IMG/VR virus record: IMGVR_UViG_3300025098_003561
Location: 1 to 48,656 of that record
DNA: 48,656 nt
Strand: one strand, 5' to 3'
From: a virus
The notes under the pieces: generated by a model
Told to the model about the DNA's origin: nothing
The model's input: only the letters and a program-made list of their open reading frames with translations
Database searches by the model: none
Position numbers and translations under genes: made by a program
In this document: positions 8,793-29,713 of the stretch, in pieces
Position numbering within the stretch: position 1 is the first letter of the stretch
How the letters are laid out: each line of letters opens with the position of its first letter

Positions 8793-10253
8793 TTAAGCCT
8801 CTGAAAATAAGTTGCCAAATTGTGTTTGTGCGTTTACTGTTTTCTTACCTATTGCTCCACGTGTTCCAATAATTGACATCCAGAACTTACTATAATGTTC
8901 AATTATTGCGTTCGCTTCATCTCTATTATCAGTTGCAAAGATTGCCTCTACAACATCTTTAAAGTATAGTCTATCAAACTGTTCTTCTACAAGCATGTTA
9001 GGAACAACACCAGCGTCATATTGTCTGTTTGCTTCTTGTACTGCATTAATATGACTCCACACATTATGACCCATTTGTATTGCATAACTAAATGAATCCC
9101 AACTTGTCTTGCCTTCTTTGCCTATCTTATTTAGGTCGCCGGGTGCATACTTACAAATATCTTGTGCAGTTAGTCCTGATGTAATAGGCGAGTCTTTAAA
9201 ACTTGTGTGCTTACCTTCACGTACAAATGCTTGACTAAATGGAGTAGTGTCAGTTGCCATCGACTTGTCATCAATGCTTGGCACCATTCTATAAACCCAT
9301 TTCTTACGATCTAATGTTTCAAGTTCACAATAAATTTGTCCGTTAGCAGTTGCTAAGAAAGGACTTGCACAATCAAACGTAATCATAAAGTTTGAATTAT
9401 GATACTTACGTACTGCTCTTTGTATGTCTGTGAGCAACGTAGCCCACTCTAATTTCGACGTTCCTAAGAAGTGCATTACATCGTGTACACCTTTTTCTAA
9501 TAGTCCGTCAAATCTAAGTGCTACAAGTCTTTTAAGAACAAGATGTACATCACACATGTTCTGTCCACCCATCGACCAACCATTAAAGTGTGTGTCAGGA
9601 TACTTAACAGGATCACAGTAATCTTTCATTTGCTGATACCAATCTTCTGCATCAGCATGATTCTCACCTTGTAATACATTTAAAAACTTACAAGCACCGC
9701 TTCTGTGTTTCATGAAGTAGTCGTTGTTAATACGTGTAGCATTAACGGCGTCTTGATAGTTGTCAATTCCAGTTGCTTTAGCACCTTCGGGAGACCGTGC
9801 TACCCAAGCCGGAATATCAAGTATCATTCCATAATCCATATAAGCGTCCATCCACGCAAGAACTTGCTCACGTTTCTTTTGTGCTTTCGGACAATTAGGA
9901 TCTTTCCAATTGCCTTCCCAAACACCTTTACCAATTTGGAAACCACCACTATCGCCAAGCATCCAAGAAGTGTTACGATCTCTATCTCGTATCATATCTT
10001 CTTTAGGTGCATCTTTGTTAATGTCAAGTTCGGCGTGTCCTGCGGAATACAAACTCCATTGATAGTTAAACAACGACTTACTTGGATTAAGCCAATTCAT
10101 GCTCTCAACACCATTAGTAAAGTGTTTAGGTATACGATTATACTCTACGTATTCCTCACGTCTTTGCTTACCTACAAAGGTTGCAAAGAAACCGCTCAAT
10201 GCTGGTAGGAATGTAGCATAGTCCTTTTGTTCTGTTGTTAAGTCTGTGTTCAC
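8793..10253 (-). CDS. dpdA: DpdA-like DNA-guanine transglycosylase
   Basis: TGT-superfamily protein of 486 aa, the class that exchanges guanine for a 7-deazaguanine base in DNA. Motifs match the TGT active site: GDSGGFQIGKG at 100-110 (base-binding Asp101), LDIPAW near 145, LQGENH near 194, GWSMGGQN near 225 (Gly-rich loop) and FDCASPFL at 293-300 with Asp294 as likely nucleophile. The C-terminal CxCxxC zinc site of bacterial tRNA TGTs is not seen, as expected for phage DpdA. It is downstream of the sliding clamp gene and heads a run of deazaguanine genes. Whether the base is preQ0, preQ1, CDG or a derivative cannot be deduced. Confidence 0.87.
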   Translation of the reverse strand: MNTDLTTEQKDYATFLPALSGFFATFVGKQRREEYVEYNRIPKHFTNGVESMNWLNPSKSLFNYQWSLYSAGHAELDINKDAPKEDMIRDRDRNTSWMLGDSGGFQIGKGVWEGNWKDPNCPKAQKKREQVLAWMDAYMDYGMILDIPAWVARSPEGAKATGIDNYQDAVNATRINNDYFMKHRSGACKFLNVLQGENHADAEDWYQQMKDYCDPVKYPDTHFNGWSMGGQNMCDVHLVLKRLVALRFDGLLEKGVHDVMHFLGTSKLEWATLLTDIQRAVRKYHNSNFMITFDCASPFLATANGQIYCELETLDRKKWVYRMVPSIDDKSMATDTTPFSQAFVREGKHTSFKDSPITSGLTAQDICKYAPGDLNKIGKEGKTSWDSFSYAIQMGHNVWSHINAVQEANRQYDAGVVPNMLVEEQFDRLYFKDVVEAIFATDNRDEANAIIEHYSKFWMSIIGTRGAIGKKTVNAQTQFGNLFSEA

Positions 10254-10451
10254 TTATACGTCCGTCCTTATAATGTGTTTCCTAAGGGCTCTAACAAGTT
10301 CTTCAATTTTGTCTACTACAGATATCATATCTTTGTCTGTAATATACTTTTGCTTTTCTCTCAACCTGTCATACTCCTTAAGAGGTATAGTTACTGTACT
10401 TTGTTCGTTTTCAAATGTTTTGTCATCGTCATTAATATCAACACTTGTCAT
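10254..10451 (-). CDS. Small acidic/coiled-coil hypothetical protein (65 aa)
   Basis: Unrecognised 65-aa protein lying between the clamp gene and dpdA. An acidic N-terminus (DINDDDKTFENEQ) is followed by a helical stretch with heptad-like hydrophobics (LKEYDRLREKQK, VVDKIEELVRALRKHI). AAGGAC sits before the ATG and the stop abuts the dpdA start, so it belongs to the same transcript. Confidence 0.6.
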   Translation of the reverse strand: MTSVDINDDDKTFENEQSTVTIPLKEYDRLREKQKYITDKDMISVVDKIEELVRALRKHIIRTDV

Positions 10452-10458
10452 AAAGTCC

Positions 10459-11187
10459 TTATTTTGTTTGAGCTGGAAGAATATAATTATATTCTGCTAA
10501 TCCAGAATCAACAGTTAATTGCATTGCACCTTGATCTGAAATACTCATTGTTATTTTGCCGTCTAAATTCAGTACTGCTTGTACCTGTGCCACTGGCCAT
10601 GCCCATGCATGTTTTAGTGTACCTGTAACATCAGTTTGGAATACAAACGAACCTGCGTGTTGTGAAGCATCACCAAAACTAAACACAAGACTGTTGCCTT
10701 CTGTTCTTACTGTAAATACAGTTTCTTCTGCGTGTGCCATACTCTGAAACTTCATTCTTTGAATTGAAGCCATACTTGGTTCTACAACAACGTCCCATGA
10801 TGCACCTTTAAACTTTACAGTTTTAAGTTTCTCATCAATAATTTGTTTGTTCATAAAGCGATAATCATTTTCAAAGTCACCTGCTTCATTTTCAAAGTGA
10901 ATGTGTGTTGGAACAGTTTCACCGTTACGTTCTGCTTGTTCAACACTAACCTTTGCATTAGTTTGATACTCAGGACACTTAAGGTGTAATGCTAACTTGT
11001 CTAAGTTAGGCATACCAAATGTACCAGTAAATTCTGACACAGGGTTCTTAGTCTGTGAACTTAAAATCACAGAACGATCTTCAGCCATCGATTCGATAGT
11101 TGTATCTGCTTCGCTCGTTACTTTTACAATGTTGAGAAATCCCAACGAGTGTGTATGTGCAACGATATCTTGTAAAATGTCTTTCAT
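10459..11187 (-). CDS. 45: Sliding clamp, DNA polymerase accessory protein (gp45-like)
   Basis: T4 gp45-type processivity clamp, 242 aa, close to the T4 length. Clamp features include the early segment FLNIVKVTSEADTTIESMAEDRSVILSSQ, the FMNKQIIDEKLKTVKFKGASWDV middle and the repeated strand pattern ending in AEYNYILPAQ. It tethers the gp43 polymerase and in T4 also activates late transcription, consistent with the late motifs in this window. GGAGAC precedes the ATG, inside the end of the epimerase gene. The clamp loader gp44 is far away at 36875-37789. Confidence 0.87.
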   Translation of the reverse strand: MKDILQDIVAHTHSLGFLNIVKVTSEADTTIESMAEDRSVILSSQTKNPVSEFTGTFGMPNLDKLALHLKCPEYQTNAKVSVEQAERNGETVPTHIHFENEAGDFENDYRFMNKQIIDEKLKTVKFKGASWDVVVEPSMASIQRMKFQSMAHAEETVFTVRTEGNSLVFSFGDASQHAGSFVFQTDVTGTLKHAWAWPVAQVQAVLNLDGKITMSISDQGAMQLTVDSGLAEYNYILPAQTK

Positions 11188-18647: not shown

Positions 18648-18655
18648 TATTTATG
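18648..18655 (-). promoter_or_regulatory. T4-type late promoter motif (CATAAATA)
   Basis: Minus-strand CATAAATA lies in the 60-base gap upstream of the 17968-18618 gene, one base away from the T4 late consensus TATAAATA. The expected start leaves a leader of about 24 nt containing AAAGG. Confidence 0.5.
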
Positions 18656-18678: not shown

Positions 18679-19386
18679 TTATGCTGGTACGCAGTTGTTG
18701 ACTCTAACTCCGCCCTTCATCTTTGTCTTAGGGCTACCAATCTTCTTACCCTTCCAACATTTTGGATCTAAGCGTTGTTTTGCTTCGTCATACTGTGCGC
18801 CTTCACTTGCGGCTTCGTTACCACATGTTCCACAGCAAGTCTTCTTTTTAATTTTCTCAGCAAGTACTGATGCTAAAGTTGACTTATATGATTCGTTAGT
18901 TCTTTTTAAAACCTTTTGAACATCTTTATGATCTGCTAAACCAGGCGCAAGTTTATTAATTGCCTTAACAGCACCTGTGTAATTGCCATCTTTATATCTC
19001 TTATCGTTTGCAATACCATATGCTTGTTTAATTTGTTTTGTCGAAAACTCTTTTTCTTGAACTTGAACGTCTTCTTTTTTCTTCTTGCTACCACGATCGT
19101 GATTGTATTTTTCTGTAGTTTGTTTTGCTTCTTGTACTTCGTCAAACTTTGTTTCGTAGTCCATATGGTGATAAACACTGCCCATATAGTCTGCGGCTTT
19201 AGTAATTTTACTTTGAACCCAACCTTCAAGACCTTCACGCTCTTCTACGCCTTTAAGCATATCATGCATCTTAATTGCGTACTTGGCAATCTTGTATAAC
19301 TCTGCACGAGCCATTTGCACTTCGTGATCTGACTCAGCCTTGTATGCTAAATCTGCTAAACCTTCTTTAAGTTGTTCTGCTTTCAT
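18679..19386 (-). CDS. Putative capsid-targeted internal virion protein (235 aa)
   Basis: Charged, mostly helical 235-aa protein. The N-terminus MKAEQLKEGLADL fits a T4-type capsid-targeting peptide with an L-K-E cleavage site for the prohead protease. Further features: GLEGWVQSKITKAADYMGSVYHH, a Lys/Glu-rich linker (SKKKKEDVQ), a cysteine cluster TCCGTCGN that may bind metal, and a basic C-terminus with MKGGVRVNNC. No enzyme domain seen. Six other genes in this block share the N-terminal pattern. Confidence 0.65.
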   Translation of the reverse strand: MKAEQLKEGLADLAYKAESDHEVQMARAELYKIAKYAIKMHDMLKGVEEREGLEGWVQSKITKAADYMGSVYHHMDYETKFDEVQEAKQTTEKYNHDRGSKKKKEDVQVQEKEFSTKQIKQAYGIANDKRYKDGNYTGAVKAINKLAPGLADHKDVQKVLKRTNESYKSTLASVLAEKIKKKTCCGTCGNEAASEGAQYDEAKQRLDPKCWKGKKIGSPKTKMKGGVRVNNCVPA

Positions 19387-19394
19387 AATAGTAT

Positions 19395-20303
19395 TTACCT
19401 TTTAACTGTTTTGCCGCCAAAGAAATTATCTTTAATATCAAGGGCGTTTTCTGCTGTACCGTCTGCTTTTTTCTTCTGTGGTGCTTTGGGTAAACCATTT
19501 TTATCTTTAGGTCTTTGCCCTTTTGCTTGTAAAGGGTTTGCAACTGAGGCAATGTTACCTGCACTGGTTGCTCCTGCTGTTGCAGATTCTCTTGTGATAC
19601 CTGCAAGTTTCATCATCTCTTGTTGATAGTTAGATGCTTGATCCATTTGCGTACTACCAGCACCTGAAACTAATTTTGCTAATTGTATAATTGAATCTGA
19701 CTCTTCATCAACTGGTTTGTCTTTTTCTAATTCTGCTTTTTTACGCATTAATTCTTTTTTAAGTTCTGGATCTTTAGATGTGTTTGGATCCATTTGAATA
19801 TCTTGTAATGCTTTTCGTTTATCTTTGTATTCGTCTTTGTCCATTGCTTCTTGTGGAGCCGCTGGAGCAGTTTTTTCTGCTTGTTTAACAAGCATCATAA
19901 ATTTTTGTCTTAGTTGTTGATTACCTAAAATGGTAGTTAACTGTTGTGCAAATGGAGCAATCTGTTTAGAAAGTGCACCTGTCATTGCGCCACCCGATGC
20001 AAGTTTATCTAAACCTTTTTGCATCATTGCGCCTGATCCGCCTTTTGCTCCCATAGCGTTTGCCGCCATCTTAGAACCTGAAGCAGTCTTTTGCGCCGCT
20101 TGTTTATCATCAGCACCTGTTGCCGCACCTGGAGCCGCGCCTGCTGTCGCACCCGCCACTTTTGATACTGCACCTTTTACTGCATTGCCTACTGCACCTG
20201 CGGCCTTCTTAACAGCACCAGCCGCCTGTTGAGCACCTGTTTTTACAGCGTCCAAAGGAGCCTCGTTTACTACTGTTGATTCTGTAATTTCTCTCAGTTT
20301 CAT
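19395..20303 (-). CDS. Ala-rich putative internal virion protein (302 aa)
   Basis: A 302-aa low-complexity protein. After the N-terminal MKLREITESTVVNEA, a capsid-targeting-like start with I-T-E as likely cleavage site, residues 15-110 are dominated by Ala, Gly and Lys. The middle has helical segments (QLRQKFMMLVKQAEK) and the C-terminus is basic. Composition suits a protein packed against DNA in the head. No catalytic motif is visible. Confidence 0.62.
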   Translation of the reverse strand: MKLREITESTVVNEAPLDAVKTGAQQAAGAVKKAAGAVGNAVKGAVSKVAGATAGAAPGAATGADDKQAAQKTASGSKMAANAMGAKGGSGAMMQKGLDKLASGGAMTGALSKQIAPFAQQLTTILGNQQLRQKFMMLVKQAEKTAPAAPQEAMDKDEYKDKRKALQDIQMDPNTSKDPELKKELMRKKAELEKDKPVDEESDSIIQLAKLVSGAGSTQMDQASNYQQEMMKLAGITRESATAGATSAGNIASVANPLQAKGQRPKDKNGLPKAPQKKKADGTAENALDIKDNFFGGKTVKR

Positions 20304-20307
20304 ACTA

Positions 20308-20904
20308 CTATTTACCTTTTTTCTTTCGTCCGCCCTTCATGTTGGCGCACCAATGATACATTTTAGCCTTCTCTCCAGATGCGTTTTTAGCCTTCTTACG
20401 CAACGATGTTACACTACCATTGCAACTTGCACCCGACTTTTTTACACGTCCTGGTCTACTTTTACCTTTTTTTTTACCGTCTGCAAAGTTTTCTTCTACT
20501 TTGTCTTCGCCACGCTTTTGCCAATCATATGACTTATCGTCATCTTCAATAGGACCACCTTTAGCCCAAGTATGACAACTTCTTGCACTATGACATTTGA
20601 AGTGATGCATCCAGCAATAACCTAAACGTCCATGTTCGTCTGATGTTTCGCCCGGCATACAATCGTCCATACGTGGTGATATATCAAATGCTACACAGTT
20701 ACCGCAGTTACTTGCTTTTGCGGCCTTTATATTTGTTTTCCAATACTTGGCAATCTTTTCCCAATAGTCACCTGGCTCGTCAACATTTAAAGGACCATAG
20801 TTAAAGTTCTTTAGTGTTGCGTCCCTGTTCTTTGTATTAAGTTCTAAGTCTTGTGTTGCCGCCGGACACTTTTTTGCTTCTAAGATAATTTCTAATATTC
20901 TCAT
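20308..20904 (-). CDS. Cys/His-rich putative internal virion protein (198 aa)
   Basis: A 198-aa protein starting MRILEIILEAKKCP; I-L-E fits the head-protease site. The central domain has cysteines at SNCGNCVAFD, DDCMPG, GYCWMHHFKCHSARSCHTW, a likely metal or Fe-S site. The C-terminal DGKKKGKSRPGRVKKSG and MYHWCANMKGG segment is a basic module I associate with head proteins of marine T4-like phages. TAATG couples it to the 772-aa gene upstream. Confidence 0.65.
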   Translation of the reverse strand: MRILEIILEAKKCPAATQDLELNTKNRDATLKNFNYGPLNVDEPGDYWEKIAKYWKTNIKAAKASNCGNCVAFDISPRMDDCMPGETSDEHGRLGYCWMHHFKCHSARSCHTWAKGGPIEDDDKSYDWQKRGEDKVEENFADGKKKGKSRPGRVKKSGASCNGSVTSLRKKAKNASGEKAKMYHWCANMKGGRKKKGK

Positions 20905-23222
20905 TACTTTTTCCTGACATTATTAATCTGTACTTCAACACCAGATAATCTATTATTCAAATCTCTAATCTTAGGTTCAAGTTTCTTTATATTCATTAGC
21001 GCCTTTTTAACTTTATTACTTTGCTTATTAAGTCTATTACCATGCTTGTTAAGTTTATTATTTTGCTTGTCATTAACAGCATCATCCTCGTGATCAGTAT
21101 CTATAACTGATTTAAGTAATGCCTCTAATGGATCACCGGCATGTGGATACTTTGCTCTAAGTTGTGCTAACGCCTGCATTGTCTCAGGGTCAAACCCTTT
21201 CATATCTATTTTGTCTTTGTTTTTGCTTTTATCTTCACGCTCATCTACGTGTGCATCATCTCCAGGCTTACCAGCGTCTTGTGTTTTATAACCTACACGA
21301 TTAAGGCCTTTTTTAAGATGTTGTTTTTCTTTCTTGCCGCCTATTGGTACTATCATAACATCAGGCTCATCTCTGTTTGCACCTTTTTTTACAGCATCTA
21401 AATTAGAAATAGTTTTACCTACACGTACAAAATCGTATGCTGTGTCAGACTTTGTAAGAAATGTATCTTTAGGATTAGGAATATGTTCGCCTTCTGTTGT
21501 ATCTTTATCTAAATTCTTCTTTAATCTATCCATTGGACTTTGAGGTATGTCAGCATCTGGATTGTTAGGTAGTTTAACATCAACTTCCATACCAAAGTTA
21601 TTAAATAATTGTTTTGCATTATTAACACTCTTTAGTGCTTTTTGCATTAGCTCTTGTTCATCTTCAGCTCTACTATCGTAAAACTTAATAAACTTACGTG
21701 CTTGGTCTGGTGTAAGACTAATTGTTCCACCTGTACTTGCACCGCCAGTGTCTTTGTAACTTAATGGAAAAGGTTTGCCATCTTTACGATCAGCAATATT
21801 TTGTATAACATCAATCTTAGGACGTTGTTGTTTTACAATTAACTCTGAAACTTGTTCTTCATCAACAGGCTTATTCATGTGTGCTTTTAGTTCTTTAGCA
21901 GTTCTTTCAAACTTATGATCCTTGTGTTTAAATCCAACACCACCAGCCGCTTCCCATTTAGCAACATTTTGTCCAAAGTCATCAATTAGTATGTTAGGTG
22001 TACCACCTGTTGAAGTAGCATACTTGGCTTTGTCTGTTGTAATAATAACTTTCTTAGGAGGAAATGCAGATAAGTTCTTTTCAATCCATTCACGCTTGTG
22101 TGGTTCTGCTCTTGGATCATCTGCAAGAGGAGCACTTAAAATATTGTACTCGCCTCTAATTTCTTTTACTAATCCTAACAGTTTATCTGCGTTAGGTGTA
22201 GGCTTTAGTTTAAGCCAAAAATCTTCTGTATCTCTAATGTCTTGTAATGCTTTGCCAACGTTTTTAATTTGTTTCCAATCTTTAACGCCCTGCATTTTAG
22301 TCCACTCGCCAAAGAAGTCAACAAGCACACCGTCCATGTCAATGTATATTTCACTTGCTTCTGATAATTCATCTGCTTGTAGTTCGTGTACTTGATCCTC
22401 TTTTGCCATTTTAGTTGCAGTTGCATACATAACAGCATCAGCATCTTTGCCGTAACGGTCTTTAAAGTCGCCTTTAGACTTCTTCATACCTTTTACAATA
22501 CGTTCTTTATCTTTTTCTTCGCCTTTAGTTAATGAACGTTCATCTACTGGCTCTACTTCATTTGCTAAATCTTTAAGTAATTTCTTTTCAAGTTTGTTTT
22601 CTTGATGCTTCTTTTTAAAATACTTTGCAGTTTTTGCCAGAGCGTAAATTGTTAATAATGTTAAACCTGCGGCCAGTAACATTTGAACTAATTTTGAACC
22701 AAGCAGTGCTATTAAAAATGCAATTATCTTATCTAACTCTGGATTTTTTCTTCTTGTTCCTTTTGTATCGATGTTACTTGGAGGTGGATTACGTAAAACA
22801 CGTTGAATAGAATCATCATAATCCTTTGGAACAGAGTTAACATCAATGTCAGGAAATTGTGCAGACAACGTTGATTCGAGATCCATACCATCTAATACTG
22901 ATTTACCTACTGCCGCTCTTCCTAACATATCTAATATACGCGGGCCGCCTACTCTTATTCCCCATGTTATTACAGGAATTAATGGTGCCGCCGCTATTGC
23001 TACTTCATTTAACTGTTTACTTTCAGCCATTCCTAAATTAAACAGTACGTTTGTTTTAGAACCTTTTACTTTTTTAGATAGTGTAGGTGGACGACCGTCT
23101 TTGTCTACTTTGTTTCCAAACTTGGCCGCTTGTTTCTTAATAGCATCAACGCCAACATCGGGTGTAGTATTAACACCTTTTACAACACGACCACCGTTTT
23201 CTTTTATATCAACGAATCTCAT
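20904..23222 (-). CDS. Multidomain putative internal virion protein with HAD nucleotidase-like domain
   Basis: A 772-aa mosaic. The start MRFVDIKENGGRV matches the capsid-targeting pattern (I-K-E). Residues ~150-215 contain a strong membrane-like segment (LDKIIAFLIALLGSKLVQML and LTLLTIYALAKT). Residues ~285-440 form a HAD-like domain: EIYIDMDGVLVDFFGEW (nucleophile motif), YNILSAPL, KVIITTDKAKYA and ILIDDFGQNVAKWEAAGG, like small 5'-nucleotidases. The rest is charged linkers and a coiled-coil tail. If packaged, it could carry a nucleotidase and a membrane segment into the host. Confidence 0.7.
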   Translation of the reverse strand: MRFVDIKENGGRVVKGVNTTPDVGVDAIKKQAAKFGNKVDKDGRPPTLSKKVKGSKTNVLFNLGMAESKQLNEVAIAAAPLIPVITWGIRVGGPRILDMLGRAAVGKSVLDGMDLESTLSAQFPDIDVNSVPKDYDDSIQRVLRNPPPSNIDTKGTRRKNPELDKIIAFLIALLGSKLVQMLLAAGLTLLTIYALAKTAKYFKKKHQENKLEKKLLKDLANEVEPVDERSLTKGEEKDKERIVKGMKKSKGDFKDRYGKDADAVMYATATKMAKEDQVHELQADELSEASEIYIDMDGVLVDFFGEWTKMQGVKDWKQIKNVGKALQDIRDTEDFWLKLKPTPNADKLLGLVKEIRGEYNILSAPLADDPRAEPHKREWIEKNLSAFPPKKVIITTDKAKYATSTGGTPNILIDDFGQNVAKWEAAGGVGFKHKDHKFERTAKELKAHMNKPVDEEQVSELIVKQQRPKIDVIQNIADRKDGKPFPLSYKDTGGASTGGTISLTPDQARKFIKFYDSRAEDEQELMQKALKSVNNAKQLFNNFGMEVDVKLPNNPDADIPQSPMDRLKKNLDKDTTEGEHIPNPKDTFLTKSDTAYDFVRVGKTISNLDAVKKGANRDEPDVMIVPIGGKKEKQHLKKGLNRVGYKTQDAGKPGDDAHVDEREDKSKNKDKIDMKGFDPETMQALAQLRAKYPHAGDPLEALLKSVIDTDHEDDAVNDKQNNKLNKHGNRLNKQSNKVKKALMNIKKLEPKIRDLNNRLSGVEVQINNVRKK

Positions 23223-23440
23223 TTTTTACGTCCTCTAAACGTTGGTGTGCCAGTCATGAAAGGTTGACTAAACCAAAGTTTAAACCATTCAGCATCGCCA
23301 GGCTTTAATCCTAATTTCTTTTCTTTTGCTTTTAATGCCGTAGCAGTAACACTTGGGTTCTCATCAAGTTTGTATGGCGAATAACCATTCCACTCGTTTA
23401 CACCTGCAAGTTTTTTAAGTTCGTCTATGCTATCGTACAT
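23219..23440 (-). CDS. Small putative internal virion protein (73 aa)
   Basis: A 73-aa basic protein, start MYDSIDELKKLAGVNEWNG. I-D-E near residue 7 fits the targeting/cleavage pattern of its neighbours. The rest (LGLKPGDAEWFKLWFSQPFM and FRGRKK) has no known domain. It overlaps the 772-aa gene by ATGA and the upstream nucleotidyltransferase-like gene by TAATG. Confidence 0.6.
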   Translation of the reverse strand: MYDSIDELKKLAGVNEWNGYSPYKLDENPSVTATALKAKEKKLGLKPGDAEWFKLWFSQPFMTGTPTFRGRKK

Positions 23441-24411
23441 TATGCCGCCGCCTTAAGTTCTGCTTTTAATTCTTTTTCTAAGTCACTAATATAACTGTTA
23501 TCAGGCTTAAAGTTTTTAATTACCTCAGTCATTTCTTTTCTGGACTTACCTTCTTTTTCTGCACTAACTAATTCATCGTATAATTTTTTACCACCGTACA
23601 CTGCTATAGCAACACCAACTGCTGGTAAACCGTATTTTAATAATCCTTTTACAATAGGATGATCAATAATATCTCCTAAAAATTCCATTGCATCTGATAT
23701 CCAACTTATACTTTTCCATGCAACTAATGAAAAACTAATTAGCCATTTATTGTTCCATAGAAACTTACCAAGTGTTAGTGCATGTTTACCGTATCTTAAT
23801 GTATTCATTATTGCCGGTAAAGCGAATTCATCTACTTGTTCTTCTTTTTTACCGCCAAGTATTCCTTGTAATTTTTCAAACATCTTTTTAGCATATGGTT
23901 TAGCCGCATCTGAAACATTATCTTCAAACGTTTCAAAGTCGCCGTCCATTGCCGCTTGTCTTAATTTTGTTGCACTTGCACCACTGGCATCATCTGCATC
24001 AGCATCACGTGAAAGTTTTTTTTGATTGATGTTATTGAATTCAAAGAAACCATGTGCGGCTTCTGTGCCGTTATACTTTTCTAACAATGGGCGTAGTTTA
24101 TCTTCACCTTCAAATATTGTTATGTCAGTGTAACCTTTATTGTATAAATCTACAGCAACAGGAAAAATATTTTTTGCAAGTGCTATAGTAATATCTGGAA
24201 AACTCTTTTGTGCCCAATCTAATTTTTCTTGTGGACTTAAAGGATCTGTAGGAACTTTTGCGGCTCTATCTGTTAAAAATAAAAATGCATCACCAGGACC
24301 TTGTTTGATAGCCTCTACAAGAAGACCATGTCCTCTATGTGCAGGATTCATTCTGCCTAAAGCAAAACTTGCTTCTTTTCCTGGGCCTTCAAATAGTTCC
24401 CTTAAAAACAT
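23440..24411 (-). CDS. Putative capsid-targeted nucleotidyltransferase-like protein (323 aa)
   Basis: The first ten residues MFLRELFEGP fit the capsid-targeting pattern (L-F-E). Immediately after comes FALGRMNPAHRGHGLLVEAI, the (H/T)xGH-type motif of NMN adenylyltransferase and cytidylyltransferases, then FLFLTDR, PLSPQEKLDWA and ITIFEGEDK, and a possible second motif SGASATKLRQA resembling ISxTxxR. The second half (residues ~205-280) is hydrophobic with two or three membrane-like segments. So the protein joins a nucleotidyltransferase domain to a membrane or pore-like region. Substrate unproven. Confidence 0.7.
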   Translation of the reverse strand: MFLRELFEGPGKEASFALGRMNPAHRGHGLLVEAIKQGPGDAFLFLTDRAAKVPTDPLSPQEKLDWAQKSFPDITIALAKNIFPVAVDLYNKGYTDITIFEGEDKLRPLLEKYNGTEAAHGFFEFNNINQKKLSRDADADDASGASATKLRQAAMDGDFETFEDNVSDAAKPYAKKMFEKLQGILGGKKEEQVDEFALPAIMNTLRYGKHALTLGKFLWNNKWLISFSLVAWKSISWISDAMEFLGDIIDHPIVKGLLKYGLPAVGVAIAVYGGKKLYDELVSAEKEGKSRKEMTEVIKNFKPDNSYISDLEKELKAELKAAA

Positions 24412-24752
24412 TAGTACTCGCCTTCTTTAAAACTGTCTACTTCCATTTCGTAGATTCTTGAAGCAAGTTCCTTTCGTTCTTCCATAGGCATAATATCATT
24501 TGCTTCGTATGGTAAGTCATATTTTTTAGTGTATTGTCCAACTGCTTGATCAATCATAGGCATTAATAATTTCATGCTTTGATCTTTATCGCCTTTGTTG
24601 TAACTTGATTGGCATCCACACATTGTTGGATAATAAGACTTTCTGTAAAATTGTGGATCGTCTTTCATAAACACAATTAAATCTGAAGGTACATCGTATG
24701 AAGGACTTTTATCAAATCCGTTTGCACCAATACCTAAATCACCTATATTCAT
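24411..24752 (-). CDS. Conserved phage hypothetical protein (113 aa)
   Basis: From the ATG at 24752, placed just after the upstream stop (TAATATG); a longer in-frame reading would lie inside the previous gene. The product starts MNIGDLGIGANGFDKSP and has LIVFMKDDPQFYRKSYYPTM and a helical C-terminus. No capsid-targeting peptide is present, unlike its neighbours. Function unknown; probably virion-related by position. Confidence 0.6.
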   Translation of the reverse strand: MNIGDLGIGANGFDKSPSYDVPSDLIVFMKDDPQFYRKSYYPTMCGCQSSYNKGDKDQSMKLLMPMIDQAVGQYTKKYDLPYEANDIMPMEERKELASRIYEMEVDSFKEGEY

Positions 24753-24753
24753 A

Positions 24754-25443
24754 TTACCACTTCCTACATGACCAGTAACGTGCTTTTGTACGCGGTCCTG
24801 GATTATCACAGTTATGTCTTGCTCTGAAGCTCTTGCGTCTTGCAGGATTAGACTTTTTAATCTTCATTGCTTTACCTTTAACACTTGATCCGCCGTGTCC
24901 AAAGTTTACTTTCTTTACGTTACCTGTTTTAGGATCTTTTACATATACCTTAAACTTCTTAACGTCACCTTGCATAGGCTTACCAAGTTTTACTTTGCGT
25001 CCTTGGTACTCTGCTTCGTCTACAATATCATCTTCATTGTACCACATTTCGCCATATGCATTATAAAAATCATCATCGTCATCATATGTTTCGTCTATAC
25101 TTGCATCAGCAAGTTCTTTGATTCTATCAAGTTCTGTTGATTCAAAATCTGCATACTTTTGTGCATCTCTATACATGTCTGCTTGGTCGGCCATGCTATC
25201 CATATGGTCTGACATAACCCAGTCATTTAATTCTGGAAGTTGATATAAATCATCAATTTCTTCTTCCGGAACTTCAGAGCCGTCTGTGTAATACACAGGA
25301 CCATCTAATTGATATATGCCATCGCTGGCATCTTCCATGTCGTATTCTAATCTACCTGTATCTATTTCTTTACCCTTGAAGATAATTCGGTCACTACCTT
25401 CACGGAAACCCGCTTCTTTTAAATATTCTTGAAATGTTTTCAT
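24754..25443 (-). CDS. Putative capsid-targeted internal protein (229 aa)
   Basis: Its N-terminus MKTFQEYLKEAGF is nearly the same as the targeting peptide of T4 internal protein III as I recall it (MKTYQEFIAEA), with cleavage expected after Glu10. The middle is very acidic (DETYDDDDDFYNAYGEMW). The C-terminus is basic and Cys-bearing: GSSVKGKAMKIKKSNPARR, SFRARHNCDNPGP and ARYWSCRKW, a module seen in other marine phage and giant-virus proteins. Leads the block downstream of the promoter at 25469-25497. Confidence 0.68.
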   Translation of the reverse strand: MKTFQEYLKEAGFREGSDRIIFKGKEIDTGRLEYDMEDASDGIYQLDGPVYYTDGSEVPEEEIDDLYQLPELNDWVMSDHMDSMADQADMYRDAQKYADFESTELDRIKELADASIDETYDDDDDFYNAYGEMWYNEDDIVDEAEYQGRKVKLGKPMQGDVKKFKVYVKDPKTGNVKKVNFGHGGSSVKGKAMKIKKSNPARRKSFRARHNCDNPGPRTKARYWSCRKW

Positions 25444-25468: not shown

Positions 25469-25497
25469 AATATAAAGTATTTATCACAGTTTGTCAA
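25469..25497 (-). promoter_or_regulatory. Sigma70-type promoter upstream of the internal protein block
   Basis: Minus-strand TTGACA (25492-25497), 17-base spacer, TATATT (25469-25474). The spacer also contains GATAAATA (about 25479-25486), the late motif of this genome, so the site may be used by host sigma early and by the phage late sigma later. The ATG at 25443 lies 25 bases after the -10. Confidence 0.75.
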
Positions 25498-26142: not shown

Positions 26143-28392
26143 TTATGCATCAACAGTTACGGGTTTTGTTGCTTTATCCGTAACAAGTACAATAGCATTG
26201 TCTTTAACATCGATAACTACGTGTCCGCCTGTTTTTAAAGCACCAAACAATAATAGTTTACTTAGATCCTTCTTGATCTCTTTATCAATAGTTCTTTGTA
26301 AAGGTCTTGCACCCATCTTACTATCAAAGCCTACATCAACAAGGTAATCAATGGCTTCATTTGTAATATCAACAGTAACTTTTTTCTCTGTAAGCATGTC
26401 TTTAAGTTCAACAAGGAACTTGCCAACAATCTTGATCATTACATTCTTCTCAAGTTTGCCAAATGCTACAACACCATCAAGTCTATTACGGAACTCTGGA
26501 GCAAAGAACTTTTTAAGTTCAGTATCTTCGTAATCCATTTCCATATCTTCATTGAAGCCGATTGCATTTTTCTCTGCCTGTTCTGCACCAAGGTTGGTTG
26601 TTAGAATCAGAATGGCATTTTTTGCATCGGCTTCTTTACCGTTGCTACCTGTAACTTTTCCGTTGTCCATTAACTGTAGTAAGATTTGTGAAACATCTGG
26701 GTGTGCTTTCTCAATCTCATCTAATAGTAATACACAGTTCGGGTGTTCTTGTAATTTTGTAATTAATAGTCCTGCACTATCTTCATAACCTACATATCCT
26801 GGAGGTGATCCAATTAGTTTTGCAACACTATGTTTCTCTTGATACTCTGACATATCAAATCTTACAAGTTCAACACTTAATTCATTTGCAAGTTGTCTTG
26901 CTGTTTCTGTTTTACCTACACCAGTTGGACCCATAAACACAAACGATCCAATAGGTTTGTTTTCTGCTTTTAGTCCTGCTTGTGCAACAAGAATCTTATC
27001 TACAATTTCATCTATTGCAGTGTCTTGTCCGTATACTTGCTTCTTAAGATTGCTATCTAAGTTAGCAAGGTTACTTGTTTCTTTTTGTTGTACTTGTTCT
27101 GGCGGTAGTTTAACTGCTTTAGCAAGTTCAAACTGTACTTCTTCTTTGCCTACAACACGTACTGTTGCTTCTTTTAAATTAAAACGTGAACAAGCCAAGT
27201 CTAATAAGTCAATTGCTTTGTCTGGTAGTTTCCTATCAGCCATATACTTCACACTTAATTTAATTGCTTCATCGATTGCATCATCAGTAATGTTAACTGA
27301 ATGAAATTCTTCGTAATACTTTTTAATACCTTGTAAAATTTCTGTAGTTACATTCTTATCAGGTTCTGAAACACTAAGACGTTGGAACCTACGCATTAAT
27401 GCACGATCCTTTTCAAAGTACTTACGGTATTCTTCCCAAGTAGTTGATGCTACAACTTTAATATCACCTTTACCTAATGCAGGCTTTAACATATTAGCCA
27501 AGTCATTCGATCCACCTGACCCTGCATTACCAGCACCATTCATCATGTGTGCTTCATCTATGAATACAATCGTTTTGCCTTGCTTTTTAATTGCACTCAT
27601 TACAAGTTTAAAACGTTCTTCAAAGTCACCTCTGTACTTTGATCCAGCCAACATAGCACTAATGTCTAAATTATATACTGAGTACTCTTGTAAAAACTCT
27701 GGTACTGCTTTATTAACAATATTATATGCAAGTCCTTCTGCAATAGCAGTTTTACCAACACCTGGATCACCAACAAGTAGTACATTATTTTTACTACGTC
27801 TGCCTAATGCAAGTGCAATGCCTTCAAGTTCTTCTGCACGACCAATTACAGGATCAATCTTTTGATTACCTGCTTCTTTGTTAAGGTTAGTTGTAAAGTC
27901 ACGTAAAGCCTTTTCAGCAACTTGACGCATTTCTTCATCTTCATAGATAGTATCTAATTCAGTGTTTAAGTAATCTGAAAAGCCTTCTTTTGTAAGACCT
28001 GACTTTTGAATATGATAGTATGACCAACTTTTCTTTTCGCCCATAATACTTAAGAACACATCAGTTGTTTCTATGTGTTGACGACCACTAAACAATACTT
28101 GTGTAAATGCTCTATTCAATACACGTTCTACTGTTGCAGTTTTCTTTGGCTTAAACTTTTTAACATCTTCTGGAACTTTGATCTCATCTAATTCTGTTTT
28201 AAGATAATGTTCAATGTTCTTTTTAATGAACTCAGGATCAGCACCAGCACCTTCAACTACTTTTACAAAGTTCTCTACACATAGCATAGAGAATAACAAG
28301 TGTTCAAGAGTAACATACTCATGTCTTAACTTCTTAGCGTCATTAATTGACTTGTCAAATACTGCTTGTAATTCGTCGCTCGGTTCTACCAT
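26143..28392 (-). CDS. clpA: ClpA-type AAA+ unfoldase
   Basis: Full-length class 1 Clp ATPase of 749 aa (E. coli ClpA is 758). An N-domain (HEYVTLEHLLFSML) precedes AAA module D1 with Walker A GDPGVGKT and sensor region, then D2 with GPTGVGKTETARQLA, VLLLDEIEKAHPD, ILTTNLGAE and a C-terminal FRNRLDGVVAF arginine-finger/sensor area. No ClpB/Hsp104 middle coiled-coil is present. Between the two Walker B-like areas of D2, NAIGFNED supplies an IGF tripeptide equivalent to the IGL/IGF loop that docks ClpP. It probably works with the host ClpP; no clpP is seen in this window. Confidence 0.92.
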   Translation of the reverse strand: MVEPSDELQAVFDKSINDAKKLRHEYVTLEHLLFSMLCVENFVKVVEGAGADPEFIKKNIEHYLKTELDEIKVPEDVKKFKPKKTATVERVLNRAFTQVLFSGRQHIETTDVFLSIMGEKKSWSYYHIQKSGLTKEGFSDYLNTELDTIYEDEEMRQVAEKALRDFTTNLNKEAGNQKIDPVIGRAEELEGIALALGRRSKNNVLLVGDPGVGKTAIAEGLAYNIVNKAVPEFLQEYSVYNLDISAMLAGSKYRGDFEERFKLVMSAIKKQGKTIVFIDEAHMMNGAGNAGSGGSNDLANMLKPALGKGDIKVVASTTWEEYRKYFEKDRALMRRFQRLSVSEPDKNVTTEILQGIKKYYEEFHSVNITDDAIDEAIKLSVKYMADRKLPDKAIDLLDLACSRFNLKEATVRVVGKEEVQFELAKAVKLPPEQVQQKETSNLANLDSNLKKQVYGQDTAIDEIVDKILVAQAGLKAENKPIGSFVFMGPTGVGKTETARQLANELSVELVRFDMSEYQEKHSVAKLIGSPPGYVGYEDSAGLLITKLQEHPNCVLLLDEIEKAHPDVSQILLQLMDNGKVTGSNGKEADAKNAILILTTNLGAEQAEKNAIGFNEDMEMDYEDTELKKFFAPEFRNRLDGVVAFGKLEKNVMIKIVGKFLVELKDMLTEKKVTVDITNEAIDYLVDVGFDSKMGARPLQRTIDKEIKKDLSKLLLFGALKTGGHVVIDVKDNAIVLVTDKATKPVTVDA

Positions 28393-28910
28393 TTAACATC
28401 CACCTTATATTTTTTAAATAATTTTTGTTGTTTTTTCTTAGCCATATCTAATCTAAGTTTACTTACTCTGTCTGTAAAGTTTATGCCTTGTAAGTGATCA
28501 TATTCATGTTGAAAGATCCTTGCATTATAACCTACAAACTCTATTGTACACTCTTTGCCGTTAGAGTCAAGATACTTGGCAACCAAAGCAGTTGCACGTT
28601 TAACTTTAAAGTATAATCCTGGGTAACTTAAACAGCCTTCTTCACCTTCAATAACCCTATCATCTATTTTAACAACTTCGGGATTGAATAGTGCAAACGG
28701 TTCATCAAAGCCTTCCATCTCGTGTGGCTTTAGAATAAAAACTTGTCCATCAAGTCCGACTTGGTTAGCACTTAGACCAACTCCTGCATTCTTATCCATA
28801 ATATCAATCATTTGTTTCTCAACATCTTTTGCATCAAGACTATTAAAATCAAAAGGTTTGACTTGTTTCTCTAACCATTCATTTGGGTGTAATACTAATT
28901 TTAATTTCAT
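28386..28910 (-). CDS. def: Peptide deformylase
   Basis: Metalloenzyme that removes the formyl group from new proteins, 174 aa, normal length. Motif 1 GVGLSANQVG (a Ser replaces the usual Ala), motif 2 EEGCLSYPG (metal Cys) and motif 3 QHEYDHLQG (HExxH) are all present, so it should be active. Marine phages encode PDFs with preference for certain proteins. Its ATG overlaps the dnaJ stop (ATGA) and its stop overlaps the clpA start. Confidence 0.94.
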   Translation of the reverse strand: MKLKLVLHPNEWLEKQVKPFDFNSLDAKDVEKQMIDIMDKNAGVGLSANQVGLDGQVFILKPHEMEGFDEPFALFNPEVVKIDDRVIEGEEGCLSYPGLYFKVKRATALVAKYLDSNGKECTIEFVGYNARIFQHEYDHLQGINFTDRVSKLRLDMAKKKQQKLFKKYKVDVKW

Positions 28911-29713
28911 AACTTCCTTAATATATCTTTTTGTTTGTCCGTTAAGTTCTTAGGAACTGTACCTTTTATGTTTAGGTATACGTTACCTGCTTGACCTGTA
29001 TTATAGTTTGGGAGACCTTGTCCGTGTATGCTTAATGTAGTGCCTGGTTGTGTGCCTTGTGGAACATTAATACTTATAGTACGTCCGTTGGGTAAACTTA
29101 AATTTGTGGCAGTGCCTAATATCAAATCAAAAACTCCAATTTCAGTTTGTACATGCAAGTCTAAACCGTTTATATCAAACTTTGGATCACGCAATATACG
29201 AACTTTTACATGAAGGTCGCCTTTGGGTAACTGTTGTATACTATCATCACCTAATCCGTGATAGTTAATAATGTCACCGTGTCTTGATCCTTTAGGAATA
29301 TCTATGTTAACAGTTTGTTCTTTACCACTTCTTGTTCTAAATGTAGCAATTACACCTTTACCTGTGTATACTTCTGCTAATGTAATATCACATGCTATAG
29401 TTACATTTGAATTACGTTGCGGTCTACGTTGTTGCTGTTGAAAGCCTTGTCCAAATGCTTGTGCAAATAAATCTTCAAACCCTCCCATTCCTTCAAAACC
29501 ATTTGGACCAAATCCTTGTGGTTGGGGGTTATCATATTGCTGTCTTTTTTGTGGATCTTTTAAAGTGCTGTATGCTTCATTGATTTGTTTGAATCGTGAA
29601 TCGTCACCACCAGTCCTGTCAGGGTGGTGTTGCATACTCAATTTCTTGTATGCTGACTTTAAATCTTTTTCGGATGCGTTTCTTGGAACGCCTAAAACTT
29701 CATAATAATCCAT
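28907..29713 (-). CDS. dnaJ: DnaJ/CbpA-type co-chaperone (class II J-protein)
   Basis: A 268-aa J-domain protein. The J-domain starts MDYYEVLGVPRNASEKDLK and has the HPD tripeptide in QHHPDRTGGD. A Gly/Phe-rich linker (FGPNGFEGMGGFEDLFAQAF) leads directly to the C-terminal substrate-binding domain; the cysteine zinc-finger of DnaJ is missing, as in CbpA/DnaJB-type proteins. It would recruit host DnaK. Heads the dnaJ-def-clpA operon. The ATG must be the true start since J-domains begin right there; a consensus promoter ends only six bases upstream. Confidence 0.92.
   Translation of the reverse strand: MDYYEVLGVPRNASEKDLKSAYKKLSMQHHPDRTGGDDSRFKQINEAYSTLKDPQKRQQYDNPQPQGFGPNGFEGMGGFEDLFAQAFGQGFQQQQRRPQRNSNVTIACDITLAEVYTGKGVIATFRTRSGKEQTVNIDIPKGSRHGDIINYHGLGDDSIQQLPKGDLHVKVRILRDPKFDINGLDLHVQTEIGVFDLILGTATNLSLPNGRTISINVPQGTQPGTTLSIHGQGLPNYNTGQAGNVYLNIKGTVPKNLTDKQKDILRKL

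Follow-up and report, generated by a model that had tools for sequence, protein, structure and literature searches.

A late operon of probable T4-type internal proteins, among them predicted enzymes, in a Kyanoviridae-like phage fragment

Why should the products of neighbouring phage genes begin with the same kind of short peptide, and could that peptide be an address label for the phage head? We asked this of IMG/VR record IMGVR_UViG_3300025098_003561, a linear viral fragment of 48,656 bases, the whole of which we call the window. The contig represents a marine virus, a Kyanoviridae-like T4-type myovirus as judged by the genes it carries and by the isolates nearest to it (Melnitz EXVC044M, HTVC008M, and C48C1). 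Eight tightly packed genes at 25443-18679 on the minus strand form the block considered here. An earlier note had read the products of seven as starting with a T4-type capsid-targeting peptide, and all seven reading frames and starts are present on that strand. Our analysis suggests that the block is very probably a late operon whose products are T4-type internal proteins, packaged by means of this N-terminal tag, trimmed after its glutamate, and probably ejected with the DNA.

Six genes, all on the minus strand, carry the tag (slashes mark the predicted cut). They encode proteins of 229 amino acids (aa; 24754..25443, tag MKTFQEYLKE/A at 25443-25414), 323 aa (23440..24411, MFLRELFE/G at 24411-24388), 772 aa (20904..23222, MRFVDIKE/N at 23222-23199), 198 aa (20308..20904, MRILEIILE/A at 20904-20878), 302 aa (19395..20303, MKLREITE/S at 20303-20280), and 235 aa (18679..19386, MKAEQLKE/G at 19386-19363). 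The 229-aa product had been described as nearly copying T4 IPIII, and the likeness is real: MKTFQEYLKE shares 6 of 10 residues with MKTYQEFIAE, the start of both T4 IPII and IPIII, and 3 more are conservative replacements.

With a strict motif defined as [I/L]-x-E with the Glu at residues 6-12, seven of the eight block genes qualified, compared with 4 of the 64 other called genes in the window (Fisher p=1.7e-6). When the block proteins were shuffled over residues 2-15, a mean of 1.3 motif genes resulted, and seven were reached with P<1e-4 in 20000 shuffles. When syntenic blocks were pooled, window included, the motif was found in 30/64 genes vs. 89/1054 elsewhere. Melnitz and C48C1 showed the same bias as the window, S-CREM2 and HTVC008M showed a weaker one, and the S-SZBM1 block had none at p=0.05. 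S-CREM2 was retested with its own annotation, since our gene calling had missed some annotated starts. Could the motif still be a chance or compositional artefact of starts rich in Glu and Leu? The background is appreciable, as [IL]xE lies near the N-terminus of ~6-10% of phage genes outside the blocks, and a 73-aa gene within the block (23219..23440, minus strand) appears to be such a case. However, the shuffles and the whole-genome backgrounds exclude this account for the remaining set of six, and we give it almost no credence.

Comparison across orthologues supported the tag and refined it. All seven products do read (I/L)-x-E in the window, but the orthologues of the 73-aa gene include starts (MDLDTLKRLAG, MDLETLKQLAG) in which the motif is missing, and the gene ranks low in the matrix test described below. 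It was therefore rejected as probably not tagged, and six genes are counted. Orthologues also broaden the motif to [I/L/V]-x-E, as in MKWRDVIE and MRVLEIVE. Among orthologues of the 302-aa protein, the Glu shifts its place, and one of them departs from the exact [ILV]xE. Across related contigs (L003-L011) the tags persist while the remainder of the proteins is rebuilt, with length changes of up to fourfold. Orthologues of the 229-aa protein range from 123 to 489 aa, yet keep the tag and the same C-terminal module (phrog_7595, ~25023-24757 in the window), and they begin MKTFQEYLKEA, MSEFKRYLKEA, MTKTFRDYLAET, or MTKKFVDYLKEA. The 198-aa protein, which carries a C-terminal SRPGR/HWCANMK module, exists elsewhere as a 68-aa version with the tag MRVLEIVE joined straight to that module. 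The same module ends the 772-aa protein (593-845 aa among its orthologues) in other relatives. Judged from these alignments, the tag behaves as a unit.

To score tags across genomes, we initially ranked proteins by BLOSUM similarity to T4 IPIII. This ranking was noisy, with virion-detected S-CREM2 proteins not placed higher overall, and it was therefore replaced by a trained matrix. We collected 80 nucleotidyltransferase loci from IMG/VR, which yielded 59 distinct N-termini; the strict motif was present in 37 of these vs. 4.3 by shuffling, typically in the form MKxFxxYLxE. A position matrix trained solely on 37 nucleotidyltransferase N-termini then scored complete gene sets. Block genes, five of the six tagged, filled ranks 1-5 of 72 in the window (chance 4e-6). 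The window nucleotidyltransferase belongs to a diverged branch of the training family, whereas the other four top genes do not belong to that family. Block genes likewise took ranks 1-5 of 216 in Melnitz. In T4, the 7 highest scorers of 274 included IPII, IPIII, and gp22, along with probable false positives (for example 9410-10729). The S-CREM2 proteins at ranks 1-5 of 219 have all been detected in virions by mass spectrometry. Across related loci, 101 of 859 proteins were matrix-tagged vs. 2 in shuffles. Two other loci are worth noting. On one 8-kb contig (L138:1293-7451), six genes are matrix-positive, possibly an even richer payload block, and a 54-aa T4 frame (18966-19130, minus strand) that is unnamed in the T4 literature cited here starts MKTFKEFIKE/D, a good match to the tag.

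Virion proteomes of relatives connect this N-terminus to the particle. S-CREM2 virions hold cytidylyltransferase gp154, APH-like kinase gp14, SAM-hydrolase gp6, gp13, and gp136 (PMC10665884), S-SZBM1 virions hold a cytidylyltransferase (PMC9146016), this cytidylyltransferase/NMNAT enzyme was also found in S-SM1 (PMC3037559) and S-SCSM1 (PMC9602691) virions, and earlier work cited in PMC10665884 placed a kinase in S-CRM01 virions. The S-CREM2 proteins begin MKNFSSFLTE/A (gp154), VKRFDAFLTE (gp14), MKDFDSFLEE (gp6), MKDLHSFLTE (gp13), and MQTFSMFFSE (gp136), the S-SZBM1 enzyme begins MRFRQFIIE/A, and the S-CRM01 kinase begins MISFDQFLSE. A further resemblance lies at the other end of the 235-aa protein, where a C-terminal CWKG...NNCV motif can also be seen by eye in S-CREM2 gp160 and S-SZBM1_139, both virion-detected. 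No link from these virion enzymes to the T4 targeting sequence appeared in the accessible text of the cyanophage proteome papers or in open-access text searches. As a separate observation, the virion-detected Cas9-like nuclease gp12 of S-CREM2 (OR473000 7704-10313, minus strand) has a tag-like RFASFMAE/A at ~residues 18-25, after a short lead.

The timing of expression bears on what these enzymes are for. The sequence ATAAATA is the T4-type late promoter core. Each of its 9 copies in the window (20.9 expected; minus strand, at 18648, 25478, 26128, 30390, 33326, 40891, 43466, 44187, and 48483) reads along the coding strand and precedes the start of a gene by 5-34 nt; permuted heptamers showed no such behavior. 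These nine cores look like late promoters and map the late transcription units. One core, GATAAATA at 25478..25485, precedes the first tagged gene by 34 nt, and the next, CATAAATA at 18648..18655, lies just past the last and closes the transcription unit. Thus, the block corresponds to exactly one predicted late unit, which would be expressed at the time of head assembly. The first tagged gene of Melnitz has a core at -47, while none was found at Melnitz recA, helicase, primase, or ribonucleotide reductase.

Alternatively, the enzymes could work in the very cell that produces them, as ordinary proteins of auxiliary metabolism or host takeover, with a shared N-terminus that serves another purpose or is unused inheritance. 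In phage annotation, NMNATs and nucleotidases usually count as metabolic genes, and the cyanophage authors leave open that such virion enzymes are carry-over (PMC10665884). However, a T4-type late promoter appears to drive the block, whereas the genes of relatives that were checked (recA, helicase, DNA polymerase, and ribonucleotide reductase) had none. Moreover, the same tag stands on unrelated protein families, and virion detection is repeated in independent phages. For enzymes made during head assembly, packaging is a more natural fate than work in the same cell, and we regard the metabolic account as very unlikely.

If the tag is a capsid-targeting peptide, the lineage should possess a gp21-type protease, and its complete genomes do. 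This protease (PF03420) is present in T4 and as a single copy in each of five complete relatives, and the majority conserve the stretches surrounding ELxHP and GVSSRG. The specificity of the T4 enzyme and the role of its ten-residue tag have been described (PMC9026906). The T4 gp23 cleavage site FLTE/A aligns with FLGE, FLSE, FLTE, and LLTE in four relatives, and S-SZBM1 gp23 reads ILTE/A near the same position. Because this site is conserved, the protease of the lineage has probably kept its L-x-E specificity. The capsid-targeting reading is thus supported in four respects, namely orthologue conservation, transfer of the matrix to T4 and S-CREM2, the protease and capsid site of relatives, and the late-promoter control.

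What would the tag deliver? The earlier note had pointed to enzyme-like parts in some products, and domain matches bear this out: at least two of the six tagged proteins are enzymes by homology. Residues ~12-190 of the 323-aa protein match a nucleotidyltransferase domain (phrog_3041, E=1.7e-28) resembling NMN adenylyltransferases (NMNAT) and cytidylyltransferases, followed by a hydrophobic C-terminal module. Its orthologues are the cytidylyltransferase/NMNAT enzymes of the virion proteomes above. PDB sequence searches with NMNAT alignments gave nothing firm until fold comparison, in which the predicted structure (pLDDT 84, first residues of low confidence) had NadM 2qjo as its best Foldseek match (E=9.7e-6). 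Related adenylyltransferases also match, phosphopantetheine adenylyltransferases about as well as NadM. The family motifs G-R-x-N-P, GH, and S-A-x-K-x-R are conserved, and the protein itself reads HRGH and SATKLR. Model and sequence thus agree on an alpha/beta nucleotidyltransferase fold carrying the motifs (H/T)xGH and Sx(T/S)KxR, although NMN as the substrate is not proven by them. The 772-aa protein contains a HAD deoxyribonucleotidase domain at residues 288-447 (~22361-21882; PF06941 E=4.4e-7, above cut-off; phrog_2643 E=7.9e-22), combined with several other modules and two hydrophobic segments (residues 74-92 and 166-184). Matrix-tagged proteins of related loci include DUF6267, adenylate kinases, and further nucleotidyltransferases, and those of S-CREM2 add SAM-lyase and kinase domains. 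DUF6267 (~410 aa; L127:4344-5564 and 14 relatives) is a common tagged family beside the nucleotidyltransferase, and its KWDG, EGFV, and KLVDR stretches read like nucleotidyltransferase/ligase motifs. We set aside a ligase assignment, as it rested on motif reading and a model (pLDDT 77) gave no confident PDB match.

These domains also bear on whether the tagged proteins could instead be structural or scaffolding components of the head that are retained or degraded and never delivered to the next cell. Such proteins do receive the same treatment, since in T4 gp21 processes core proteins, gp22 and gp67 among them, and the head loses most of the fragments (PMC9026906), and some block proteins are small, basic, and repetitive. 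Yet the block encodes catalytic domains with conserved motifs, and adenylate kinase, kinase, and SAM-lyase domains stand behind the same tag in related loci or S-CREM2, none of which a scaffold needs. We therefore consider a purely structural role unlikely, though less so than the metabolic one.

A third possibility would add to the internal-protein explanation rather than replace it, namely that the long proteins are polyproteins whose modules, flanked by (I/L/V)-x-E, are released as small domains in the head. Indel and module boundaries do fall near [ILV]xE (37 ends vs. 17.6 random, P=2e-4), V-x-E reaches 1.77x expectation in block proteins (window plus contigs L004-L006), and the SRPGR module follows x-x-E in each context seen (EIVE/NF, NITE/NF, SITE/NF). 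However, the boundary events are not independent, strict [IL]xE is not enriched at boundaries (P=0.11) and is slightly scarce inside the proteins (39 vs. 47 expected), and cleavage at V-x-E by gp21 is not established. Internal processing of this kind therefore seems doubtful.

Several observations weigh against our overall interpretation. The virus is known from a metagenomic contig alone, and the virion proteomes come from relatives, where the authors' caution about carry-over applies. PF03420 was sought as a gp21-like protease and not found on this 48.7-kb fragment or in five related contigs, as expected because the contigs are fragments. In HTVC008M, an outlier phage, motif enrichment is weak, the matrix places no block gene at the top, and the NMNAT (107221-109011) starts with a tag-like MKTLKELLRKK that lacks the Glu. 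The simpler motif tests were only moderately significant in S-CREM2 (p=0.007, 0.037), and its top five matrix hits include the NMNAT, which is homologous to the training set, and gp23, leaving three with a chance of 0.012. Finally, the 198-aa protein scores poorly in the matrix (rank 8/72), and the virion-detected S-SZBM1 block proteins 136 and 139 lack the tag.

Taken together, packaging of the six tagged proteins is well supported by homology, and the subsequent steps can be outlined from the T4 precedent. While heads are being assembled, transcription would start from the late promoter core at 25478-25485, and six of the eight products would carry an 8-10 residue N-terminal capsid-targeting sequence ending (I/L/V)-x-E. 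This sequence would dock each protein on the prohead scaffold core, where a gp21-type prohead protease encoded elsewhere in the genome would cut after the Glu and leave the proteins loose among the DNA. By analogy with T4, the trimmed proteins would then be ejected with the DNA at the next infection. The predicted payload comprises an NMNAT/NadM-fold nucleotidyltransferase, a deoxyribonucleotidase, and hydrophobic and basic Cys-containing modules, whose expected targets in the first minutes, before phage expression, might be NAD+ or nucleotide pools, host defence, or both. Enzyme roles within the block are uncertain. Still, T4 internal proteins block type IV restriction enzymes (PMC12373910) and phages rebuild NAD+ against NAD+-depleting defences (PMC12774641), which makes an early protective role plausible, and protection of NAD+ or nucleotides is a reasonable prospect that we rate at somewhat below even chances.

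Some features of the locus stand outside this argument. A conserved gene without a tag lies inside the operon (24411..24809, minus strand), encoding 132 aa from a GTG start or 113 aa from the ATG at 24752. The 302-aa protein contains an Ala/Lys-rich low-complexity region. Adjoining the block, at 26143-29713, ClpA-like ATPase, peptide deformylase, and DnaJ-like genes stand in a row.

If our interpretation is correct, one known mechanism would explain the recurrent metabolic enzymes in purified cyanophage virions, and the N-terminal sequence would become a predictor with which the injected payload of abundant ocean viruses could be listed from sequence alone. Genes read as late-acting auxiliary metabolic genes would become first-minute effectors in the next host, and this natural set of tags and cargo could inform T4-based protein delivery. 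A broader and much more speculative idea, which we think improbable as a whole, is that Kyanoviridae use the T4 tag as a general loading platform. Tag-plus-cassette genes would recombine freely, protease-like sites would border the cassettes, with a mixture of processed small domains possibly present in the head, and the delivered set (NMNAT and nucleotidase here; adenylate kinase, SAM-lyase, kinase, and ligase-like DUF6267 in relatives) would serve as a ready-made counter-defence kit, shielding NAD+, nucleotides, and nucleic acids ahead of phage expression.

Among known systems, the closest are T4 IPI, IPII, and IPIII, which are unrelated proteins with only a leader in common, an N-terminal peptide of ~8-10 residues ending L/I-x-E, in a lineage with a gp21-type protease. 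T4 internal proteins are small anti-restriction proteins, whereas here a single operon holds long modular proteins that include metabolic enzymes. The richness of the block claimed by the earlier note thus stands, with six tagged genes in one late operon instead of seven. T4 Alt, a packaged and injected ADP-ribosyltransferase, is a further large enzyme that begins with an L/I-x-E propeptide (MELITELFDE), but the enzymes here differ and the block has no ADP-ribosyltransferase match. The virion NMNAT/cytidylyltransferases and kinases of cyanomyoviruses (S-CREM2, S-SZBM1, S-SM1, S-SCSM1, S-CRM01) offer a homologous NMNAT-fold enzyme in a similar gene neighborhood, and virion proteins of S-CREM2, S-SZBM1, and S-CRM01 start with the same tag; the accessible text of those reports, however, presents them as possible virion passengers, with no tie to the tag or to T4 packaging. 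Polyvalent proteins (Iyer et al. 2017, PMC5512222) are multidomain injected proteins with enzymatic, DNA-binding, and uncharacterised domains near late genes, but their processing is ascribed to zincin-like peptidases or MuF links rather than to a T4-type peptide for a prohead protease. In phiKZ, 201phi2-1, and SPN3US, a relative of gp21 cleaves many head proteins behind a Glu, and these are ejected, but the motif is S/A-x-E and the propeptides are often much longer (PMC5694885, PMC9026906). The tag mechanism is thus known from T4, and what is new is a modular, enzyme-bearing payload in marine T4-like phages together with a predictor that agrees with virion proteomes.

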